This document shows positions 5,170-25,261 of a DNA stretch of 26,986 nt, piece by piece. Both the position numbers and the translations under genes were made by a program. The stretch's first letter is position 1, and each line of letters begins with the position of its first letter. Where the stretch lies: positions 1 to 26,986 of the IMG/VR virus record IMGVR_UViG_3300028177_000028, one strand, 5' to 3'. Source of the stretch: a virus. Below the pieces are notes generated by a model that had not been told where the DNA came from, ran no database searches, and saw only the letters and a list, made by a program, of their open reading frames with translations.

Positions 5170-5580
5170 TTAAGCATTATGTGAGTTGTGCATTGACCCA
5201 TGAATACGTGCTCTATCAGATGTTACGACAATTGCATCAGTGTGGGTATCATCAATCTGTTTTACGTCGCTTACTAATAAAATATCATTGTTATCCACAC
5301 GGCGCAATGTCAAGTCAGTGTCGCCAACTTCAATTTTAATACCACGTGTCCATCTACCGTGTGATGTCAGTACATACTGCCCCACAGACACATCAGTTTG
5401 TTTGTCACCGATTGCATATACTTCCGCCCACCTAGGTCTAATGCCAGTAGATGTTTTATCGTCACCCGGAAGAATAATACCATTGGAAGTGAATCTCTCT
5501 CCAAAATGCATATCCTTTACTAGTATGTTATCGTGCAGTGCTTTAATTGAATCGATTTTGTATGTATTAATTGATGCCAT
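5170..5580 (-). CDS. 31: Co-chaperonin, T4 gp31-like
   Basis: This 136-residue GroES-fold protein is expected to cap the GroEL ring and enlarge the cage so that the major capsid protein can fold, as T4 gp31 does. IKALHDNILVKDM (12-24) aligns with the first strands of GroES. ERFTSNGIILPGDD (28-41) is the mobile loop, with the GIIL-type hydrophobic contact that docks on the GroEL apical domain. WAEVYAIGDKQTDVSVGQYV (51-70) matches the GroES pattern EV-x-A-x-G-x-G...V-x-x-G-x-x-V. It has a C-terminal extension of about 30 residues beyond the fold. It overlaps the preceding gene by TAATG. It is distinct from the canonical GroES at 24054-24341. Confidence 0.85.
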   Translation of the reverse strand: MASINTYKIDSIKALHDNILVKDMHFGERFTSNGIILPGDDKTSTGIRPRWAEVYAIGDKQTDVSVGQYVLTSHGRWTRGIKIEVGDTDLTLRRVDNNDILLVSDVKQIDDTHTDAIVVTSDRARIHGSMHNSHNA

Positions 5581-6071: not shown

Positions 6072-6575
6072 TTAACGTAGAAATTCACCTACGTCTAAAT
6101 TGTAGAATATGCTATCTATTTTATGAACTTCTAATTTATACAATACATAACTAGAAACGCTTGACCCACGCCCAACCCCCCATATTATGTTATTTTGTAT
6201 CATAGTATCTACTAGGTATTTCATGTACTTCAATAGGTTAAATAAACTTCGTTCTTGATACATAATAAGTTCATACCCACATCGTTGGAGTTCCGCATCA
6301 GTGTTGCATTCCGATAATATGTACTCAGCGATATCTAAATCTTTGTACTCATTTGGCATATACCAATTTTCTTGATTTTTTCTATCAAATTCAAAGACAG
6401 TATCGGATGGTTCAACGTATTGCACTACGGTTTGGGTACCTGTGTAATTATTAACATTCGACACATTAACCCCATTTACTAAAAATTGGGAAGATGTGAT
6501 ATCAATTCCTTGCATAATAATATCACTAACATCATCCTCATCGTAGATGTATTGTCCGAATTTATCCTTTATCAT
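6072..6575 (-). CDS. DNA polymerase III alpha-like 'GRGS' domain protein (stand-alone fragment)
   Basis: The chosen start (MIKDKFGQY) overlaps the previous stop as ATGA; an in-frame ATG at 6593 is possible. The product has 167 residues. Its C-terminus reads GVGRGSSVSSYVLYKLEVHK followed by IDSIFYNLDVGEFLR. This matches the pattern in bacterial DNA polymerase III alpha, G-V-G-R-G-S-x-x-x-S-L-V-x-Y-x-L-x-I-T-x-I-D-P-x-x-Y-x-L-x-F-E-R-F-L. Pol III alpha is over 1100 residues and has a PHP domain and a catalytic Asp triad; neither is present here. It may be a remnant or a repurposed nucleotide- or DNA-binding domain. The match is seen directly; the function is unknown. Confidence 0.7.
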   Translation of the reverse strand: MIKDKFGQYIYDEDDVSDIIMQGIDITSSQFLVNGVNVSNVNNYTGTQTVVQYVEPSDTVFEFDRKNQENWYMPNEYKDLDIAEYILSECNTDAELQRCGYELIMYQERSLFNLLKYMKYLVDTMIQNNIIWGVGRGSSVSSYVLYKLEVHKIDSIFYNLDVGEFLR

Positions 6576-8233
6576 TGGTAATTCACCAAACACTCTAATT
6601 CGGGGAAAACGTCAATGAGTTTTTCATTTCGTATATTATCAATTTGTGTTATTTTTTTCCAAAACCCATTGGCATCAAATATAGATGTTTCGTCTGTTAA
6701 CGCGGTGAGTATGGATTTGAAAGATGTCACTGATTTTTCCGTTTTATCTAATGGTATTAGCCAATCTATATGGGTCGAAATTTTATTATAAATTTTTTGT
6801 TTTAATTTACGGGGAGCGTTCTTTAGGCTAAACACGCTTGGATAATCTAACACCTTTGGGTTAAATTGTTCTGGTATTATTAACCCATCCTTAACCCATG
6901 CTTTGTGAAAATGTGGAATATGCAATGCGTTTACCAAACTAACAGTTGCATCGATGCTGAACCCTACTTCTGGTAGTTTTTGTAGCATCATATATCTATT
7001 ATTAACGATTGTATCCCATTTTGTTCCACTCCTCCAATATTCGGCACGTGTACCCATTGCATCTAGGCTTGCACCAATATGAATATGGTTGAACGCCCCC
7101 CAATAATCAAAAATACTTTTACCACGAAAGGTCAAATTTGTAAAGTTGGTATTAAAAACCAATTCAATATCAAATCGTTCCTGTTTGTACAAACTTTCGA
7201 GAATATCCCAACATTCCTTTATTATTAATGGTTCCCCCCCAGCAAAATAAATATATTCCACGTGGTCTAAATGTTCCATATATTGGGAAAATACTCCACT
7301 TGGGCGTAGTAATTGTTGATATTCTAAATTTCCATTAATTAATTTAGAATCAGCAAACCACGAGGTGGACGAATGTGGACTGCATGTCCTACACTTCAAG
7401 TTACACAAATTATTAAATCTTATATCCCATGCAACGTGTTCATATGGGAATGCCCCATCATCCCCAGTATTCTCAGTTCTTGGTATATGATGCAAAAACT
7501 TATTATTTGCAGATTGTCTAAATGTCGCTTTTTCTGATGATTCATTTATAGAACACACCTCGCATCCATGTATGGGTATGTCATTTAACATATCTGTCCG
7601 TATTTGACGCATACTCTCGTTATTGAATATTTCACTTAATGAATTGTCATTAACATCACCAACTGCACTATTCGAATTATAAACACAGCATGGATAAACC
7701 AACCCATTCGGTCTTACTTGAGTTTGAATCCACGGCATGATACAAAAATTCTTGTTATTATCTATAATGTTTGCTGTATTCTTTGTTAAGTTGTCCAACA
7801 TTACATTTTGTGGGATTACTTCTGTAATAAGGGTGTCTATCTTTTTAAATTTTCCAAAACATTTATATATTTCGAAGGATATATTATCTGATGAAAAATT
7901 CTTTAAGATATGTGTATATTCCGATTCAACATTGTGGTTTGTTGTTAAAAACAATATGAAAAAATTACTAATATCTACTTTATTAATAATTGTTTGTACG
8001 GTTTTTAACAATGTTCCGTAACTTGATGTATTGTATTGGTCTAGTGATGAATGTATTAGTATTCTCTGTTCTTGCCCATATGCTGTTTTATACAATTCGT
8101 TTATCTCTAACTGCAGATTTGCAAGAGAGTGAATATAATTATCTAAATTGATGGTGCCTAATATTTGATAGGAATCATTCAGTGAAACAATGCACTGATG
8201 GATATCCAAGTCTGTTGTTTTTAAATTTATCAT
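6572..8233 (-). CDS. Radical SAM protein with SPASM/twitch-like cysteine region
   Basis: The 553-residue protein has three parts. Residues 1-150 are an unrecognised N-terminal domain. Residues 160-230 hold FCIMPWIQTQVRPNGLVYPC with CC at 182-183 and CEVC at 224-227, the cysteine pattern of SPASM/twitch auxiliary-cluster domains. From about 265 the radical SAM core begins, with CNLKCRTC (Cys277, 281, 284; CX3CX2C) binding the 4Fe-4S cluster, then YIYFAGGEPLI, the GGEP motif that contacts SAM. Such enzymes make 5'-deoxyadenosyl radicals for peptide or small-molecule modification. The auxiliary part comes before the core, as in a group I recall from cyanophages and pelagiphages. ATGA overlaps link it to both neighbours. 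The substrate is unknown. Confidence 0.9.
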   Translation of the reverse strand: MINLKTTDLDIHQCIVSLNDSYQILGTINLDNYIHSLANLQLEINELYKTAYGQEQRILIHSSLDQYNTSSYGTLLKTVQTIINKVDISNFFILFLTTNHNVESEYTHILKNFSSDNISFEIYKCFGKFKKIDTLITEVIPQNVMLDNLTKNTANIIDNNKNFCIMPWIQTQVRPNGLVYPCCVYNSNSAVGDVNDNSLSEIFNNESMRQIRTDMLNDIPIHGCEVCSINESSEKATFRQSANNKFLHHIPRTENTGDDGAFPYEHVAWDIRFNNLCNLKCRTCSPHSSTSWFADSKLINGNLEYQQLLRPSGVFSQYMEHLDHVEYIYFAGGEPLIIKECWDILESLYKQERFDIELVFNTNFTNLTFRGKSIFDYWGAFNHIHIGASLDAMGTRAEYWRSGTKWDTIVNNRYMMLQKLPEVGFSIDATVSLVNALHIPHFHKAWVKDGLIIPEQFNPKVLDYPSVFSLKNAPRKLKQKIYNKISTHIDWLIPLDKTEKSVTSFKSILTALTDETSIFDANGFWKKITQIDNIRNEKLIDVFPELECLVNYQ

Positions 8234-11854: not shown

Positions 11855-12457
11855 TTAATGTCCTGTACTTAGATTTGCACTTACATCCATAAAGTTTTGT
11901 AGGTACCAACTTGTACCATCTGAAATCCATGTAGTTACGTCGCCTGACGCTGTTGTAATGTCTGCTGAACCACCTTTAAGGTCAGTTCCAGTTACATCAT
12001 ATACAACTGCATGTGCTGAAATTATAGTAATAGTTTGCCCTGCAACACCATCGTCGAAGTCAGTGATAGTTACTGCACCGCCAGACTTAAACAAGTTACC
12101 ACCTGCGACTGTTGGTGTTGCATCCGCCGCACCAAAAGTAATAAATGTACCACTTGTACCTGCCGCCGCGAAACCACCGTTAACCGTAGTTGCACCTGTA
12201 ACTGTTACTGTACTACTTGCTGTTACTGCATTAGCAAGAACGATAGTACCTGTACCATTTGGGTCTAATGTTAAGTTACCATTAGTGTCATCCGTTGAAA
12301 TAGTGTTACCACTGATGCTAATATTACTTAAACTTGCTCCACCTAGTTCAGTGTAAACTTCGTTAAAGTTATCGTTAACTTTGTCGAATGCCGTTCTTAA
12401 TTGGTCGCCTGTGCCGTCATTTGCTGTAGCACCGATATTGATTGATTGTTGAGCCAT
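11855..12457 (-). CDS. Phage structural protein with conserved N-terminal module
   Basis: A 200-residue, Thr/Gly/Ala-rich beta-type protein. Its N-terminus, INIGATANDGTGDQLRTAFD then KVNDNFNEVYTELG, is a module common in marine phage fibre and structural proteins (recalled). It resembles the start of the 8553-9296 product (GFRDNF...NFIEAKTEIEDVQ). The middle (NGNLTLDPNGTGTIVLANAV) looks like the beta repeats of tail-fibre or peptidase-linked structural proteins. The Shine-Dalgarno AAGGAAAA precedes the ATG, and a perfect TATAAATAC lies 33 nt upstream. It is probably an abundant late virion protein; the exact place in the particle is unknown. Confidence 0.75.
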   Translation of the reverse strand: MAQQSINIGATANDGTGDQLRTAFDKVNDNFNEVYTELGGASLSNISISGNTISTDDTNGNLTLDPNGTGTIVLANAVTASSTVTVTGATTVNGGFAAAGTSGTFITFGAADATPTVAGGNLFKSGGAVTITDFDDGVAGQTITIISAHAVVYDVTGTDLKGGSADITTASGDVTTWISDGTSWYLQNFMDVSANLSTGH

Positions 12458-12489: not shown

Positions 12490-12517
12490 TATTTATACTT
12501 TTTCGTATGTATTTATT
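12490..12517 (-). promoter_or_regulatory. Tandem late promoter-like motifs AATAAATA and TATAAATA
   Basis: On the minus strand AATAAATAC (from 12517) and TATAAATAC (12497-12490) lie 20 nt apart. The second is a perfect T4 late consensus 33 nt before the ATG at 12457. The first overlaps the stop codon of the 309-residue gene. I predict strong late transcription of the structural genes downstream. Confidence 0.7.
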
Positions 12518-13446
12518 TACAACAAAACACTAGGACATGATATTTTTTTAACAGATGGATGTCTATTGACGAATGTCGTGTAACTCCCATCCGACCCCAC
12601 ATATTCAGTAGCATGAACAGTCAGGAATGGTAATAAGTCTGATAAATCAAATCGTATTCTATGATTAGTAATAAATGTCATTGATGGATTGATATTCCCC
12701 AATGATTCACCAACTATATTAAACATCCCACTTGAATCAAATATATTGGAGGCGTGTGCATCATGTATCTCCATTACGATATCGCCAATATTTTCAAAGA
12801 ACCTACGATTATCATCGGTGAGTGAATGTGTACCATCGTGGTAGTTTATTGGGTATTCTTTGGAAAACTGCATAATTGATGGTAGAAACCCACCTATCGT
12901 TTTTTCAATGGAGATATCAATTGCGAAGTCATCGGAACCAACTGCATTGGAAAATTCATCATCAGTGTAAATATTAGTAATATTGATGAAATCTTCGTTT
13001 GGATTATTATCAAAATCCATTACAAAGCAGTTAAAGTCTAAATTGTATGTTTTCTTCCTTAACGCAGTGGCATAAATTTTATTATGACCTGTTGTTGCTA
13101 TAACGTTAGAGTTGACTTTTATAACGAAAATAGGACTATGCCAATCTTCTTCTAACCCAATATTACATAATGCAATCTTTCTATGCAAATATGCTTTATT
13201 CGTGATGGTTCCATCACAATTTGATTTGAACAATACATTCGCTTCATTTTTGTAAATAGACACTTGATTGGAAAATGTGTTTTTTGAAAAATTGCATTTA
13301 TAAAAATTACAGAATTTTCGTATGTACGCGACAACCCCATCATTGAGTCCCGGTAGGCAAATCCTTGTATAATTGGTAGAGTGTTTCTTTTCGAATATTA
13401 TATCATTATTGTTGGATATAACTCGATATCCATCTGATGGATACAT
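12517..13446 (-). CDS. Hypothetical protein, last gene of the IF-1 operon
   Basis: A 309-residue protein of unknown function, cysteine-containing, with no signal peptide or membrane segment. Around residues 104-132 it reads SPIFVIKVNSNVIATTGHNK then IYATALRKK. This loosely recalls the ParB/sulfiredoxin-type pattern (strand, then G-H-x-R/K, then helix with A) that marks a nucleotide-binding nuclease-like fold, but the match is short and I do not rely on it. The start overlaps the IF-1 stop by one base (TAATG), so it is translated with IF-1. The downstream neighbours are structural genes, so a virion or takeover role is equally possible. Confidence 0.7.
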   Translation of the reverse strand: MYPSDGYRVISNNNDIIFEKKHSTNYTRICLPGLNDGVVAYIRKFCNFYKCNFSKNTFSNQVSIYKNEANVLFKSNCDGTITNKAYLHRKIALCNIGLEEDWHSPIFVIKVNSNVIATTGHNKIYATALRKKTYNLDFNCFVMDFDNNPNEDFINITNIYTDDEFSNAVGSDDFAIDISIEKTIGGFLPSIMQFSKEYPINYHDGTHSLTDDNRRFFENIGDIVMEIHDAHASNIFDSSGMFNIVGESLGNINPSMTFITNHRIRFDLSDLLPFLTVHATEYVGSDGSYTTFVNRHPSVKKISCPSVLL

Positions 13447-13664
13447 TAATTTCTTCTGGTAATACGACCTAGAGTAAGGTCGTATGGACTCATTGTTGCT
13501 TCTATGTTATCACCAAGTATAACTTTAATTCTATTTTTACGCATTCGACCAGAAAGATGACATAGAATTGTCCTATCTACATCATCCAATTTAACTTTGA
13601 ATTTGTTTCCAGGCAAGACCACAATGACCTTTCCTGTAACCTCTATATCATCGGCTTTCGCCAT
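13446..13664 (-). CDS. infA: Translation initiation factor IF-1
   Basis: The 72-residue product has the same length as E. coli IF-1. It matches nearly end to end: MAKADDIEVTGKVIVVLPGN, then FKVKLDD, ILCHLSGRMRKNRIKVILGD, and MSPYDLTLGRITRR. The H-x-SG-x-MRKN-x-I and PYDL-x-x-GRI blocks are the IF-1 signature of the S1-like OB fold that sits in the 30S A site during initiation. The gene is between the Hc1-like gene and the 309-residue gene with TAATG overlaps on both sides, downstream of a perfect TATAAATA late promoter. A phage copy could boost or bias initiation on phage mRNA late in infection. Identity is firm; the effect is inference. Confidence 0.93.
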   Translation of the reverse strand: MAKADDIEVTGKVIVVLPGNKFKVKLDDVDRTILCHLSGRMRKNRIKVILGDNIEATMSPYDLTLGRITRRN

Positions 13665-13846
13665 TAAGAACCAATTGCGGCCTTCTCATCCATGATTTCC
13701 TTGCGACGTTCTTTGCCTGCTTTGGTAATTTCTTGGATTGCTTTACGTGCTCTTGCTGCTGATGCTTTAACGCCTTTCTCTGTTAATTTTGCATGCTCTG
13801 CTAAGTAAACTTCGAACTGCTCTACGATAATTTCATGATTTGTCAT
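13664..13846 (-). CDS. Histone H1/Hc1-like small protein
   Basis: A 60-residue helical, Lys/Arg/Ala-rich protein. LTEKGVKASAARARKAIQEI (21-40) followed by TKAGKERRKEIMDEK matches the pattern G-x-K-A-x-x-x-R-A-R-K-(A/S) seen in short bacterial histone H1/Hc1-like proteins, which bind DNA and compact nucleoids. The basic tails of chlamydial Hc1 are absent, so it is a minimal form. It is the first gene of a late operon: TATAAATA at 13885-13878 is 32 nt upstream, and its stop overlaps the IF-1 start (TAATG). Possible roles are phage DNA packaging, host nucleoid remodelling or ribosome binding. Family assignment is moderate. Confidence 0.65.
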   Translation of the reverse strand: MTNHEIIVEQFEVYLAEHAKLTEKGVKASAARARKAIQEITKAGKERRKEIMDEKAAIGS

Positions 13847-13877
13847 TTTATATTTCCTTATTATTAAATATGCTTAT

Positions 13878-13885
13878 TATTTATA
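13878..13885 (-). promoter_or_regulatory. Late promoter-like TATAAATA for the Hc1/IF-1 operon
   Basis: A perfect T4 late consensus TATAAATA reads on the minus strand directly after the stop codon of the 95-residue gene, 32 nt before the ATG at 13846. It predicts late transcription of the Hc1-like, IF-1 and 309-residue genes together. Confidence 0.7.
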
Positions 13886-16579: not shown

Positions 16580-17434
16580 CTACTTTTTATCTTGTAGCAT
16601 ATGTTGTTTTAATGACGATTCCATGCTTGTGATTTGTTGCTGTAAAGCAAGTACAACTTCGTGTGTGTCGTGTACTTCAAACGCTTCGCCTTTGCCCATT
16701 TCTTTACTGTGCTTTTCGTGCTCTTGACTAAACACATCAATAACGACACCAATCATCATGTTTAAGAATACAAATGCGTTTAAGAAGATAAAACTAAGGA
16801 AGTAAATCCAAGCAAGTGGGTACACGTCCATTACAGCGTACATAACTTCTGACCAATTATCAAACGTAACTACACGGAACATTGTAATCATTGCTACTGA
16901 AATATTGCCCCATAAGTCTGGGTCAACTGTGTTGAAGAACATACTACCTACGGCGCCGTACATATAGAATATAACAAACATAAGCAGTACCACGTATCCC
17001 ATCCTAGGAATTGCTTTAAGTAGCGCACCTACTAACATACGTAGTTCTGGTACGAATGAAATTAGTCGTAGTACTCTAAAGATACGCAACAGTCTAGCAA
17101 GTAGTACAGTTTCGCTGTCGTCTATTGGAATTAAACTAACAGTTACGATGATTGTATCAAAAACGTTCCATCCGCGCTTAAAGAAGTTTTTAAATTGTGG
17201 TTCAACCATCATCCTAATAATGATTTCAAACAGAAAGAATATAGTAATACCAAAGTCAAGTAATTCAAGTAGTGACATTGACCACGTAGGTAAGTTGTAT
17301 GTATTTGCACCAATTGCCAATGCCGAAACGACAATAACAACTATTACGAGTGTTTCGAAAATTTTACAAGTGTGTATGCCATCCAATCGTTCGATTAGAG
17401 TTACGTACTTTGATTTGATTGTGTGGATTGTCAT
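16580..17434 (-). CDS. Single-domain voltage-gated cation channel (NaChBac/BacNav-like)
   Basis: This 284-residue inner-membrane protein has six predicted segments: S1 26-43, S2 59-76 (Glu70), S3 88-103 (Asp93), S4 110-125, S5 145-168, S6 207-238. S4 carries Arg114, 117, 120 and 123 at every third position, the voltage sensor. The pore loop reads TFDNWSE (190-196), aligning with TLESWSM of bacterial sodium channels. Asp replaces the key Glu, as in the engineered calcium-selective filter TLDDWSD. A C-terminal helix (255-280, VVLALQQQITSMESSLKQHM) fits the coiled coil that holds the tetramer. Length matches bacterial channels (about 260-290). No Shine-Dalgarno sequence is seen; the ATG lies at the end of an inverted repeat. 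It could depolarise the host or carry Na+/Ca2+; that is inference. Confidence 0.92.
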   Translation of the reverse strand: MTIHTIKSKYVTLIERLDGIHTCKIFETLVIVVIVVSALAIGANTYNLPTWSMSLLELLDFGITIFFLFEIIIRMMVEPQFKNFFKRGWNVFDTIIVTVSLIPIDDSETVLLARLLRIFRVLRLISFVPELRMLVGALLKAIPRMGYVVLLMFVIFYMYGAVGSMFFNTVDPDLWGNISVAMITMFRVVTFDNWSEVMYAVMDVYPLAWIYFLSFIFLNAFVFLNMMIGVVIDVFSQEHEKHSKEMGKGEAFEVHDTHEVVLALQQQITSMESSLKQHMLQDKK

Positions 17435-17961: not shown

Positions 17962-17969
17962 TATAAATA
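17962..17969 (+). promoter_or_regulatory. Late promoter TATAAATA for the endonuclease gene
   Basis: A perfect TATAAATAC on the plus strand, 27 nt before the ATG at 17996, with AGAGGG as Shine-Dalgarno in between. It is on the opposite strand from nearly all other genes, so the endonuclease carries its own phage-type promoter. Confidence 0.7.
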
Positions 17970-17995: not shown

Positions 17996-19231
17996 ATGTG
18001 GATTTACAAAAATAAAGAATTTACGGAGGATATTAGTGAATATGATTCATTTGTATATCTAATAACTAGATTGAGTGATGATGAGATTAAACCAAAGTAT
18101 TACATTGGTAAAAAAACATTTTGGTTTAAAAATAGAAAAAAAATTCCAGGGAGAAAAACACGAAAAATAATAAAAACGGAATCAAATTGGGTATCTTACT
18201 ATGGTTCATCAAATTGGCTCGAGGAAGTTATTAATGAAGAAGGTAAAGAAAACTTCAGAAGAGAAATTATCCATCTATGTTCTTCAAAAGGGGAATCATA
18301 CATATTGGAAGCAAAAGAACAGATGCAAAATAATGTATTGTCGAAGAAGTATAGTAATGGTATTAAGAAATTCTATAATAAGCATATTTTGGGGAAATAC
18401 ACAAAAGAATATTTTTCAACACGTGAATTGACTGAACTCATGTCATTCGAAAATGATATGAATCCATGTGGAATGATATGGATAACAAATGGCACGGAGA
18501 GCAAACAAATAAAAGAAATAGATGAAATTTTAAGTGGGTGGGAGCGTGGGTATCATTTTGGCAAGAATTACTGTTGGGTTAATAATGGAAGGGATGAAAA
18601 AAAAATATTACGTAGTGATATAAACAGTTTGATTTATAGAGAATGGAACGTCGGTAGATTATACTCACCATCGAAAAATAAAAAATGTATTCATAAGGGT
18701 GATAACATAAAGTACATCACAAAAGAAGAAGTTGATTCATACGTTGATGATGGGTGGGTGATAGGTAATACTAAATTAAGAAAGACATTAGAGGAAAGAA
18801 ACAAACTGCACGTATGCAATGATGATTCAAAGACACAAAAACTAGTTTCAAATCACGATATTAAAAACTTTTTATTAGAGAATCCCACGTGGCGAATCGG
18901 GCAATTCAAACGTGGGAACTTCACAACAGAAAATAAAGTTTTTGCCTATGATATGATGAGTAATGAAAAGGTTCAAGTAACAAAAGATGAATACAATAAT
19001 AACAAAAACTTGACTAGTGTTAAAACAAGAATGGTTAAGGTTAAACGAAAAAATAAAATTGTTTTTGAAGGGTTTTTACCACTTTTCTTCCAAAACTACG
19101 ATGTTCCAACTACACCATTTAATAAAAAATTAAGACTTGGTGATACCACCAAAATAGTAATCATTAAAGGGAAAAATAAGTGGATTACTGACGAAGGGTG
19201 GTCAATTGCTGAAATTACAAAAAAGGCATGA
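17996..19231 (+). CDS. GIY-YIG (SegE-like) homing-type endonuclease
   Basis: The 411-residue protein has a GIY-YIG-type nuclease domain at 18-120: VYLIT (20-24), KYYIGKK (34-40), then WVSYYGSSNWLEEVI, F-R-R-E-I-I-H-L-C and a Glu in ILEAKEQMQNN, the layout of T4 SegE-like free-standing endonucleases. Residues about 155-270 hold repeats of the type W-x-x-NG...GW-x-x-G (MIWITNGTESKQIKEIDEIL then SGWERGYHFG; CIHKGDNIKYITKEEVD then DGWVIG), common in the DNA-binding parts of homing enzymes. It is one of only two plus-strand genes, with its own late promoter, and A/K-rich unlike its neighbours, as expected for a mobile gene. The target site is unknown. Confidence 0.8.
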   Translation: MWIYKNKEFTEDISEYDSFVYLITRLSDDEIKPKYYIGKKTFWFKNRKKIPGRKTRKIIKTESNWVSYYGSSNWLEEVINEEGKENFRREIIHLCSSKGESYILEAKEQMQNNVLSKKYSNGIKKFYNKHILGKYTKEYFSTRELTELMSFENDMNPCGMIWITNGTESKQIKEIDEILSGWERGYHFGKNYCWVNNGRDEKKILRSDINSLIYREWNVGRLYSPSKNKKCIHKGDNIKYITKEEVDSYVDDGWVIGNTKLRKTLEERNKLHVCNDDSKTQKLVSNHDIKNFLLENPTWRIGQFKRGNFTTENKVFAYDMMSNEKVQVTKDEYNNNKNLTSVKTRMVKVKRKNKIVFEGFLPLFFQNYDVPTTPFNKKLRLGDTTKIVIIKGKNKWITDEGWSIAEITKKA

Positions 19232-19246
19232 ACTTTAGAACAGTTT

Positions 19247-19333
19247 CTTAAAGAACTCTTTAATGTCGTCCATGTAATCGTTAATAATCCACCCTGCGAT
19301 AAATCCTAGTACAAATGTTATAGTTAAAAACAT
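19247..19333 (-). CDS. 28-residue single-span membrane peptide coupled to the lipase
   Basis: The frame from ATG 19333 to TAA 19249-19247 encodes MFLTITFVLGFIAGWIINDY followed by MDDIKRVL. Residues 2-17 form one hydrophobic segment with a small-residue G-x-x-x-G-type face; the tail is charged. The ATG overlaps the lipase stop (TAATG), and AGAAG precedes it, so it can be translated by re-initiation. Short hydrophobic peptides beside a lipase suggest a membrane or lysis role, or an anchor, but none is shown. Real existence is moderately supported. Confidence 0.5.
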
Positions 19334-20289
19334 TACTTCTTCTCCTTTTTAGGGTCTTCTAAGAATGATTCACGGTCTTTCCAAAGCAACTCTTTAGCAC
19401 CTTTAATCTTAGGGTCGATATTTGCTATGTAATTGTCCATGAAGTGGTCAGGCATTTCTTTAAACATTTCCCACATTGAAAACCCTTCCTTTGCCGCGTT
19501 CAACCAAAATGAATTAACTCCGTTACCACGTGCTTGTGCCTGCTCTAAGAAGCAGTAGTACTCGTCATTGCATAACTTAACCATCTCACCGAAATGCACA
19601 TAACGTTTAAACATATACATTAACTCGACTGGTGGAACCAATGGAACAATGTCAGTTTCGTTAACTACACGTGTTAGTGGCAAATGTCCCCATTTCGCTC
19701 TGCCGTCTTTGTCAAATGCTTTTGGTTGCCCGAATGTAATAATCTTTCCTAGGTTCATCTTTGCTTGGTCTGTGTAAGCACCTACAATTAATGCTTCTGC
19801 GCCACCTAATGAATGGCCAGTAACATTAATAACATAATCCTTATCAGTCATTTTAGATGCTAAATCATCGAATATCATTTCAGCGGCTTTGTGGAATCCA
19901 CTATGCACTTTGCAATCTAAACGGTTTGATTTATCTTTATCGAACTTCATATCTTGCATTGCATTTTTAAAGTTGCTAGTGCCACGTATAACAATAGTGT
20001 ATGTCTTTGCTGTAACGTCTGTAATAAGCATAAAACGTATCTTTTTAATAACATTAACATATGCATTAGGATACTTTTTATTAATCTTCTTGTCGTCTTT
20101 TTCGTAAATAAATCTTGCTAGTTCAGCATAATGTTTAATTTCTTTCCAATTAACATCATGTGATTTTGTGAAATCTTGCTTGTACTGTTGTCCTAAGTTG
20201 TACTTACGTTGCATACGTTTTACAACTTTCTTACCTACCCAAGCGTAAAGTTTACCTAATAAGTACTGTTTTGCTAACCATGCTCCCAT
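19333..20289 (-). CDS. Class 3 lipase-like alpha/beta hydrolase
   Basis: The 318-residue protein matches the Lipase_3 family. VIRGT (100-104) is the oxyanion-hole strand, VHSGFH (128-133) is the usual motif before helix B, and TGHSLGGAEA (157-166) has nucleophile Ser160. ITFGQPKAF precedes NETDIVPLVPP (Asp213), and KRYVHFGE gives His232, completing the triad. The N-terminal 40 residues are basic and amphipathic (YLLGKLYAWVGKKVVKRMQR) and may bind membrane; there is no cleavable signal peptide. Family members cut acyl ester bonds in lipids. A role in host lysis or membrane remodelling is inferred. AATAAATA lies 30 nt before the ATG, suggesting late expression. A 28-residue membrane peptide is coupled downstream. 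Confidence 0.88.
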   Translation of the reverse strand: MGAWLAKQYLLGKLYAWVGKKVVKRMQRKYNLGQQYKQDFTKSHDVNWKEIKHYAELARFIYEKDDKKINKKYPNAYVNVIKKIRFMLITDVTAKTYTIVIRGTSNFKNAMQDMKFDKDKSNRLDCKVHSGFHKAAEMIFDDLASKMTDKDYVINVTGHSLGGAEALIVGAYTDQAKMNLGKIITFGQPKAFDKDGRAKWGHLPLTRVVNETDIVPLVPPVELMYMFKRYVHFGEMVKLCNDEYYCFLEQAQARGNGVNSFWLNAAKEGFSMWEMFKEMPDHFMDNYIANIDPKIKGAKELLWKDRESFLEDPKKEKK

Positions 20290-22397: not shown

Positions 22398-24044
<1,647 letters not shown>

Positions 24045-24053
24045 TTATTCTCC

Positions 24054-24341
24054 TTAGTTAATTACTGCTACAATTTCTTCTTCATGCATAATAACAAAAT
24101 CTTCGTTATCTACATTTACTTCTGTTCCGGCGTGTTTGTTAAACAGTACGATATTACCAACTGTGACATCTAGTGCTTGTAATTCACCGTTGTTATCGCG
24201 TACGCCATTGCCTACTGCAATCACTTCGCCACGACTTGGCTTTTCAGATGCTGTTCCTGGAATAATAATTCCACCCGACGTAACTTGTTCTTCTTCTGCT
24301 CTGCGTACTACTACGCGGTCATACAATGGTTTTAACTGCAT
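24054..24341 (-). CDS. groES: Co-chaperonin GroES (10 kDa)
   Basis: The 95-residue protein is canonical. [20 protein letters not shown] leads into the mobile loop [15 protein letters not shown] (21-35), then [30 protein letters not shown], and EEEIVAVIN. It forms the seven-fold lid of GroEL. AGGAGA lies before the ATG. It is followed 9 nt later by groEL, the usual bacterial order. The sequence differs clearly from the gp31-like protein at 5170-5580, so the phage carries two types of lid. Confidence 0.97.
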
Positions 24342-24400
24342 TTTTTTCTCCTATGTTATTATTATTATTATTATGTTATTTTTATATATCCAACAATACT

Positions 24401-24475: not shown

Positions 24476-25261
24476 CTATGCTAGTCGCATGTTGTCATTA
24501 ATACCAATGGCAAAATCCAATAGTTCCAATGGACTTTTATCTTTTGCAAATTCTACAAATGCCTTTGTATCCTTCGGAAAACATGCCCCGCCGAACCCAT
24601 ATTCACCATCTGGTCCAGGAACTTGTAAATGCGATGAGCCAATTCGGGCATCCATACTTACAATTTCAGTTAATGCATCAAACGATGTTCCGCCATCCTT
24701 ATTGTACAGATGAAACAATTCATTGAAGAACACTACCTTCATTGCAAGAAAAGAATTGATTGTGTACTTTGCGAACCCTGCTGTTGTAATATCAGTAAAT
24801 CTAACTTGTCCTATATTACACACGTCTTTAAATATTTCGTACCAAAAACGTCCGTTATCACCACCAAACACAGCAAAATCTTGATTTAAGAAATCTTCAT
24901 TGGCATTACGTGCTAACAAAAACTCTGGCGAAAATGTTACGTTATCTTGGGTTATGTTACTTAGCGTAGCAATATCAGTAGTTGATTTAATTAAGATTGG
25001 CACAGTCTTTGTGTGTTTACGAATTTCATTAATGTAGTACGTAACCAACGAATCATCGCATTTCCCATTGGCATCAGGTGGGGTTGGCACACATATAATA
25101 ATACCATCGGGTGATGTGTATTTTAACTTATGTCCATTTTCACCCTTGGGTGGGTCAATTAACATAATATCATATTTGGATTCTAATGCATTAATTACGG
25201 CAGAACCAACGAATCCACTACCAATAACAGTGAATTGACTTTTCTCAGTGACATCTTTCAT
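24476..25261 (-). CDS. UDP-glucose/GDP-mannose 6-dehydrogenase-like protein, short form
   Basis: The 261-residue protein has an N-terminal Rossmann fold with FTVIGSGFVGSAV (10-22; GxGxxG for NAD), ICVPTPP (56-62), STTD (94-97), FSPEFLLARNANEDFLNQD, and the catalytic block FGGACFPKDTKAF with Cys227. These are family hallmarks. Usual enzymes are about 390-450 residues and end with a UDP-sugar-binding C-terminal domain, absent here, so the chain ends shortly after the central helix domain. Such enzymes oxidise the C6 of nucleotide sugars to uronic acids. A short form I recall from marine phages may act with a host partner or have another role. TATAAT at 25296-25291 is 30 nt upstream. Confidence 0.85.
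   Translation of the reverse strand: MKDVTEKSQFTVIGSGFVGSAVINALESKYDIMLIDPPKGENGHKLKYTSPDGIIICVPTPPDANGKCDDSLVTYYINEIRKHTKTVPILIKSTTDIATLSNITQDNVTFSPEFLLARNANEDFLNQDFAVFGGDNGRFWYEIFKDVCNIGQVRFTDITTAGFAKYTINSFLAMKVVFFNELFHLYNKDGGTSFDALTEIVSMDARIGSSHLQVPGPDGEYGFGGACFPKDTKAFVEFAKDKSPLELLDFAIGINDNMRLA

Follow-up and report, generated by a model that had tools for sequence, protein, structure and literature searches.

A large T4-like phage carries an infA gene for a predicted IF-1 within a candidate late-type block

The infA-like gene described here lies within a stretch of 26,986 bases from an IMG/VR virus record, referred to as the window, which covers part of the genome of a large T4-like phage. 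The gene occupies positions 13446..13664 and encodes a translation initiation factor IF-1 of 72 aa, MAKADDIEVTGKVIVVLPGNKFKVKLDDVDRTILCHLSGRMRKNRIKVILGDNIEATMSPYDLTLGRITRRN, read as 72 codons from 13664 to 13446 on the minus strand. The initial annotation had described a full-length 72-residue IF-1 with MRKN and PYDL-x-x-GRI blocks at this position; the coordinates held and both blocks were present (MRKN and PYDLTLGRI), and the placement is corrected here to the minus strand. The locus is arranged, in minus-strand order, as a TATAAATA box (13878..13885), a 60-aa Hc1-like gene that is the first of the block (13664..13846; Pfam PF07432, 41.5 bits against 23.5), infA, a 309-aa gene of unknown function (12517..13446), a second TATAAATA box (12490..12497) and a baseplate/tail-fibre connector-like gene with a T4 gp9/gp10-like N-terminus (11855..12457; phrog_677, PF07880). 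The 309-aa gene had no match in Pfam, PHROG or NCBIfam; it was kept in the related contigs L002, L003 and L015 and was absent from L001.

The infA gene had been proposed to be locked between its neighbors by TAATG overlaps, and single-nucleotide overlaps were indeed found at both ends: the stop codon of the Hc1-like gene overlaps the infA start codon by one base, and the infA stop codon overlaps the start of the 309-aa gene in the same way. One-base overlaps also occur at two other junctions within the window. The Hc1-like gene is preceded by a good Shine-Dalgarno-like AAGGA (13855..13859, minus strand; anti-SD energy -6.2 kcal/mol) and the infA start has a weak site (-3.3 kcal/mol), so that infA probably starts by translational coupling. 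Across the window, anti-SD energies of -4 kcal/mol or lower were found at 54% of start codons versus 19% of random coding positions. IF1 together with IF3 opposes non-canonical initiation, and leaderless mRNAs need IF2, with IF3 acting against them (PMC4611024). The earlier suggestion that the phage IF-1 favors weak or leader-poor starts is thus not supported: it runs counter to these roles of IF1 and IF3 and gains no particular support from the anti-SD energies.

The assignment of the protein to the infA family was supported by profile, structure and residue comparisons. The protein scored 79.5 bits against NCBIfam TIGR00008, the curated infA equivalog model (cut-off 61.15 bits), covering model positions 1-68 of 69, and 65.8 bits against Pfam PF01176 (IF-1; cut-off 30.2). 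Its best phage family was PHROG 30201, which is labelled as of unknown function. An AF2 model (pLDDT 90.7) gave an OB fold that superposes on 30S-bound IF1, with a Z score of 14.2 and 1.0 Å over 70 residues against E. coli IF1 in the 30S-IF1-IF3 complex (9fco_I), and a Z score of 13.1 against Thermus IF1 on the 30S subunit (1hr0_W). The counterparts of R40, K41, R45, R65 and R69 reportedly contact A1492/A1493, the 530 loop and S12 (PMC10913371; PMC4611024). In the window protein, the basic contact positions 40/41/45/65/69 are R, K, K, R and R, so that K in place of R45 is the sole change among them. Substitutions at 30S-contact residues that abolish binding had been named as grounds for discarding the assignment; the one found among these residues, R45K, leaves every mapped Arg/Lys position basic. 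Compared with cellular IF1 (E. coli infA; 9fco, 1hr0, 1ah9), the window protein shares the fold, the length and R40/K41/R65/R69; it differs from E. coli IF1 in sequence (43% identity), in the replacement of Y43 by R and of F68 by R, and in a loop that is one residue longer and lacks His29.

The neighbors of infA are phage genes, and they are conserved in L001-L003 and L015. The Hc1-infA pair was kept in L001, L002, L003, L015 and L244, and a wider block extending down to the clamp loader was kept in several relatives. The dN/dS of infA was 0.067 versus L001 and 0.042 versus L002, at a dS that is already above 1. Both GC and GC3 of infA fit phage genes. By these comparisons infA lies in phage DNA and is under purifying selection, the combination expected of a phage translation-hijacking gene. 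A host origin of the segment, which had been raised as an objection, or an artefact, was ruled out by the conserved phage neighbors together with selection. A functionless copy, either taken up recently from a host or produced by misassembly, would account for the patchy occurrence among relatives and for the cellular family to which infA belongs. This reading, however, is largely refuted and is now barely credible, given the dN/dS of 0.04-0.07, the same neighbors in independently assembled contigs, the clustering of phage copies in the tree, and the GC and GC3 values. The tree, of 73 columns and with few resolved forks, does not name the gene donor.

Several other genes were identified in the window. 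A bacterial-type GroEL (548 aa) with an adjacent GroES is encoded at 22398-24341 (minus strand); its best matches, at about 73%, are to enterobacterial GroEL, which points tentatively to a proteobacterial host. Besides this bacterial-type GroES, the window encodes at 5170-5580 (minus strand) another, divergent protein of the Cpn10 type that may be a co-chaperonin like T4 gp31. The gene at 16580-17434 (minus strand) encodes a 284-aa voltage-gated ion-channel-like protein (PF00520, E 2.6e-44), which to our knowledge is unusual for a phage. The sole clear plus-strand gene, at 17996-19231, encodes a SegE-type GIY-YIG homing endonuclease (PF19835), and a TATAAATA box is located before it at 17962. 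Genes for a radical-SAM/SPASM protein (6572-8233), a class 3 lipase (19333-20289) and a UDP-glucose/GDP-mannose dehydrogenase-like protein (24476-25261) are all located on the minus strand.

The first TATAAATA box of the block, a T4-late-type promoter candidate, is a perfect match; 39 nt separate it from the ATG of the Hc1-like gene downstream, and L001 has a box at the same place. The initial annotation had put infA directly behind a perfect box; the perfect match was confirmed, but the box precedes the upstream 60-aa gene and is about 220 nt from infA. Because infA is the second gene in an overlapping block, the promoter would serve the whole unit rather than infA alone. The second box precedes the tail-fibre connector gene by 40 nt, an arrangement also found in L001 and L002. 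By count, TATAAATA was no more frequent in the window than expected by chance (6 seen, 5.1 expected from shuffles), and position alone is informative. The box recurs 38-46 nt before start codons (of the Hc1-like gene, the connector gene and following genes) in the window, L001 and L002, which are related contigs, so that this recurrence represents conservation of place and not independent occurrences. We therefore take TATAAATA as a candidate late-type promoter in this close clade.

The box was not seen in L003, in L015 or in most of the wider clade. Large phages at a greater distance (L018, L033 and L039) have a sigma70 consensus, TTGACA-17 nt-TATAAT, ahead of the Hc1-like gene, and in them 3-4 kb separate this gene from infA. 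A scan of viral contigs for the second promoter-leader pattern gave no match. Late expression of infA is thus probable in one unit with phage genes in the closest relatives, where we infer it from the promoter, and the earlier proposal does not extend to the wider clade: the absence of the box from L003 and L015 and the sigma70 consensus in L018, L033 and L039 indicate that late expression is not a general rule.

Searches of phage databases recovered infA homologues as well as the conserved Hc1-infA pair in relatives. A tblastn search of 50,697 phage records gave 35 matches, none above 60% identity, which include Lak phages, Bacteroides phages, Sinorhizobium phage Phosso and uncultured huge phages. 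Some INPHARED matches were rejected as phage examples; Acinetobacter 'phage' MD-2021a carries leuBCD and truA beside infA and looks bacterial. In IMG/VR, 152 stretches encode a relative, many of them on contigs larger than 200 kb. A T4-type clamp loader was present on 15/15 large contigs tested, 14 of them with infA; this family also weakly matches cellular AAA proteins. The closest named clamp loaders, at 58%, belong to Pseudomonas jumbo phages such as PA5oct, and no PA5oct record was among the IF-1 matches of the tblastn search. Of 50 contigs that encode a related clamp loader, nine had infA and it was not found in the other 41, many of which are fragments; infA therefore seems dispensable within this kin group. 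The description of IF-1 as unusual holds among cultured T4-like phages but not among phages generally, given the 152 IMG/VR stretches and the report in 2020 by Al-Shayeb et al. of IF1 and IF3 in huge phages (PMC7162821).

This kind of phage IF-1 is thus already known from huge phages, and the present locus adds modest new detail. That report describes a bacterial-type IF1 borne by large phages and proposed to redirect host translation, as here; the window IF-1 has its setting in a candidate late-type block of a T4-like lineage and a residue signature of its own. Sinorhizobium phage Phosso (PV764938), a jumbo phage with a clamp loader at 46% identity to that of the window, has an annotated IF-1 that is 43.7% identical to the window protein; its gene follows a MutT-like gene and is outside the tail-fibre block.

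Companion genes were assessed in 23 IF-1-bearing contigs, of which 14 carried S21 and five carried IF3. S21 was as frequent in clamp-loader contigs that lack IF-1 (3/6) as in those that have it (2/4 of the IF-1-positive contigs checked), so that S21 and IF-1 keep company and we claim no association between them. One contig (L050, G010) has S21 and IF3 next to an ATPase match that may be ClpX, at 178386-180071; clpX also adjoins IF-3 in phage AP-J-162 (PMC11242549). A superoxide-dismutase-like gene (PF00081, marginal score) directly follows infA in about 30 large-phage loci (L016, L020-L045 and others), and a WYL_2-like gene lies upstream of infA in 31 loci. In other infA groups the neighbors are virion proteins or NUDIX genes. 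The L015 contig (G021) has one in-frame TGA inside an otherwise intact clamp-loader frame, at 23447-24361. RNA chaperone and antitermination activity is on record for E. coli IF1. With this precedent, and with a small Hc1-like protein encoded next door, the phage protein could be a moonlighting OB-fold protein that acts on phage transcripts as an RNA chaperone or transcription antiterminator and not as a ribosomal factor. This is quite unlikely, as the residues conserved across phage copies include the 30S contacts and many carriers also have S21 or IF3.

Residues that distinguish this lineage were counted in 33 distinct sequences; the first grouping had been made partly by sequence, and the count was redone with groups set by synteny. 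Position 68, which adjoins the essential R69, is Arg in 28 of the 33; in bacterial IF-1 it is aromatic in 32/38. Between positions 25 and 33, 32/33 have one extra residue, and His29 is missing from all 33. Position 43 also differs from the bacterial Tyr, but the IMG/VR search pattern demanded N or R there; as a signature from copies found by that pattern it is partly built into the search and was rejected. In nine copies found independently by way of the clamp loader, Tyr43 occurred in none and Arg68 in seven. By these alignments, Arg68 and the longer loop without His29 are the new detail for this phage lineage.

The loss of His29 and the replacement of F68 suggest that affinity for the 30S subunit could differ from that of the cellular factor. 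One tentative reading, which we regard as doubtful, is that the IF-1 of this lineage has diverged on its ribosome-facing side (Arg68, the longer loop without His29, no Tyr43), differs from host IF1 in how it binds the 30S subunit, and steers the choice of mRNA to late messages of the phage. Arg68 beside R69, the longer loop without His29 and a net charge of +5 versus +2 in E. coli IF1 would also suit a dominant-negative IF-1 whose altered 30S affinity blocks host initiation as a shut-off factor. This is unlikely, because all mapped contact Arg/Lys residues are kept (with one R to K), the predicted fold is intact, and infA sits with late structural genes, at a time when the phage itself needs initiation.

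We consider it probable, with fairly good confidence, that the window gene encodes a working IF-1 that binds the A site of the host 30S subunit and is made together with structural proteins. In the mechanism that we propose, the TATAAATA promoter before the Hc1-like gene would drive infA along with late structural genes, and the TAATG overlap would couple infA translation to that of the gene upstream. The phage IF-1, by analogy with cellular IF1, would occupy the A site and would raise the ratio of IF1 to 30S, or replace host IF-1, during bulk synthesis of virion proteins. Extra IF-1 would maintain a supply of free subunits for initiation and, with IF3, sharpen discrimination, and canonical phage mRNAs may thereby be helped to compete. 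We infer such a benefit from analogous cases: in cold-shocked E. coli, threefold more IF1 and IF3 per ribosome biases mRNA choice (PMC6511846); phage bS21 is expressed late in infection with structural genes (PMC9723584); and the T7 kinase phosphorylates IF1, IF2 and IF3 (PMC6375957). Like the window IF-1, phage bS21 is an initiation component encoded among structural genes and proposed to favor phage mRNAs late. It is, however, a ribosomal protein and not a cycling factor, and its timing comes from metatranscriptomes, whereas that of the window gene is predicted from a promoter. It is highly improbable that the phage IF-1 serves as a replacement to protect phage translation when a host defence acts on host IF-1; phage translation genes such as IF3 have been discussed as translation support or ribosome rescue under translation-targeting defence (PMC7824862).

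The infA assignment gives a function to PHROG 30201, until now listed as of unknown function. Few translation genes of large phages are as small as that for IF-1 or as open to testing: the protein is expected to bind one known site with mapped contacts, and rescue assays are available. Its late-type setting and residue signature would allow a direct test of whether an initiation factor supplied by a phage changes mRNA selection.
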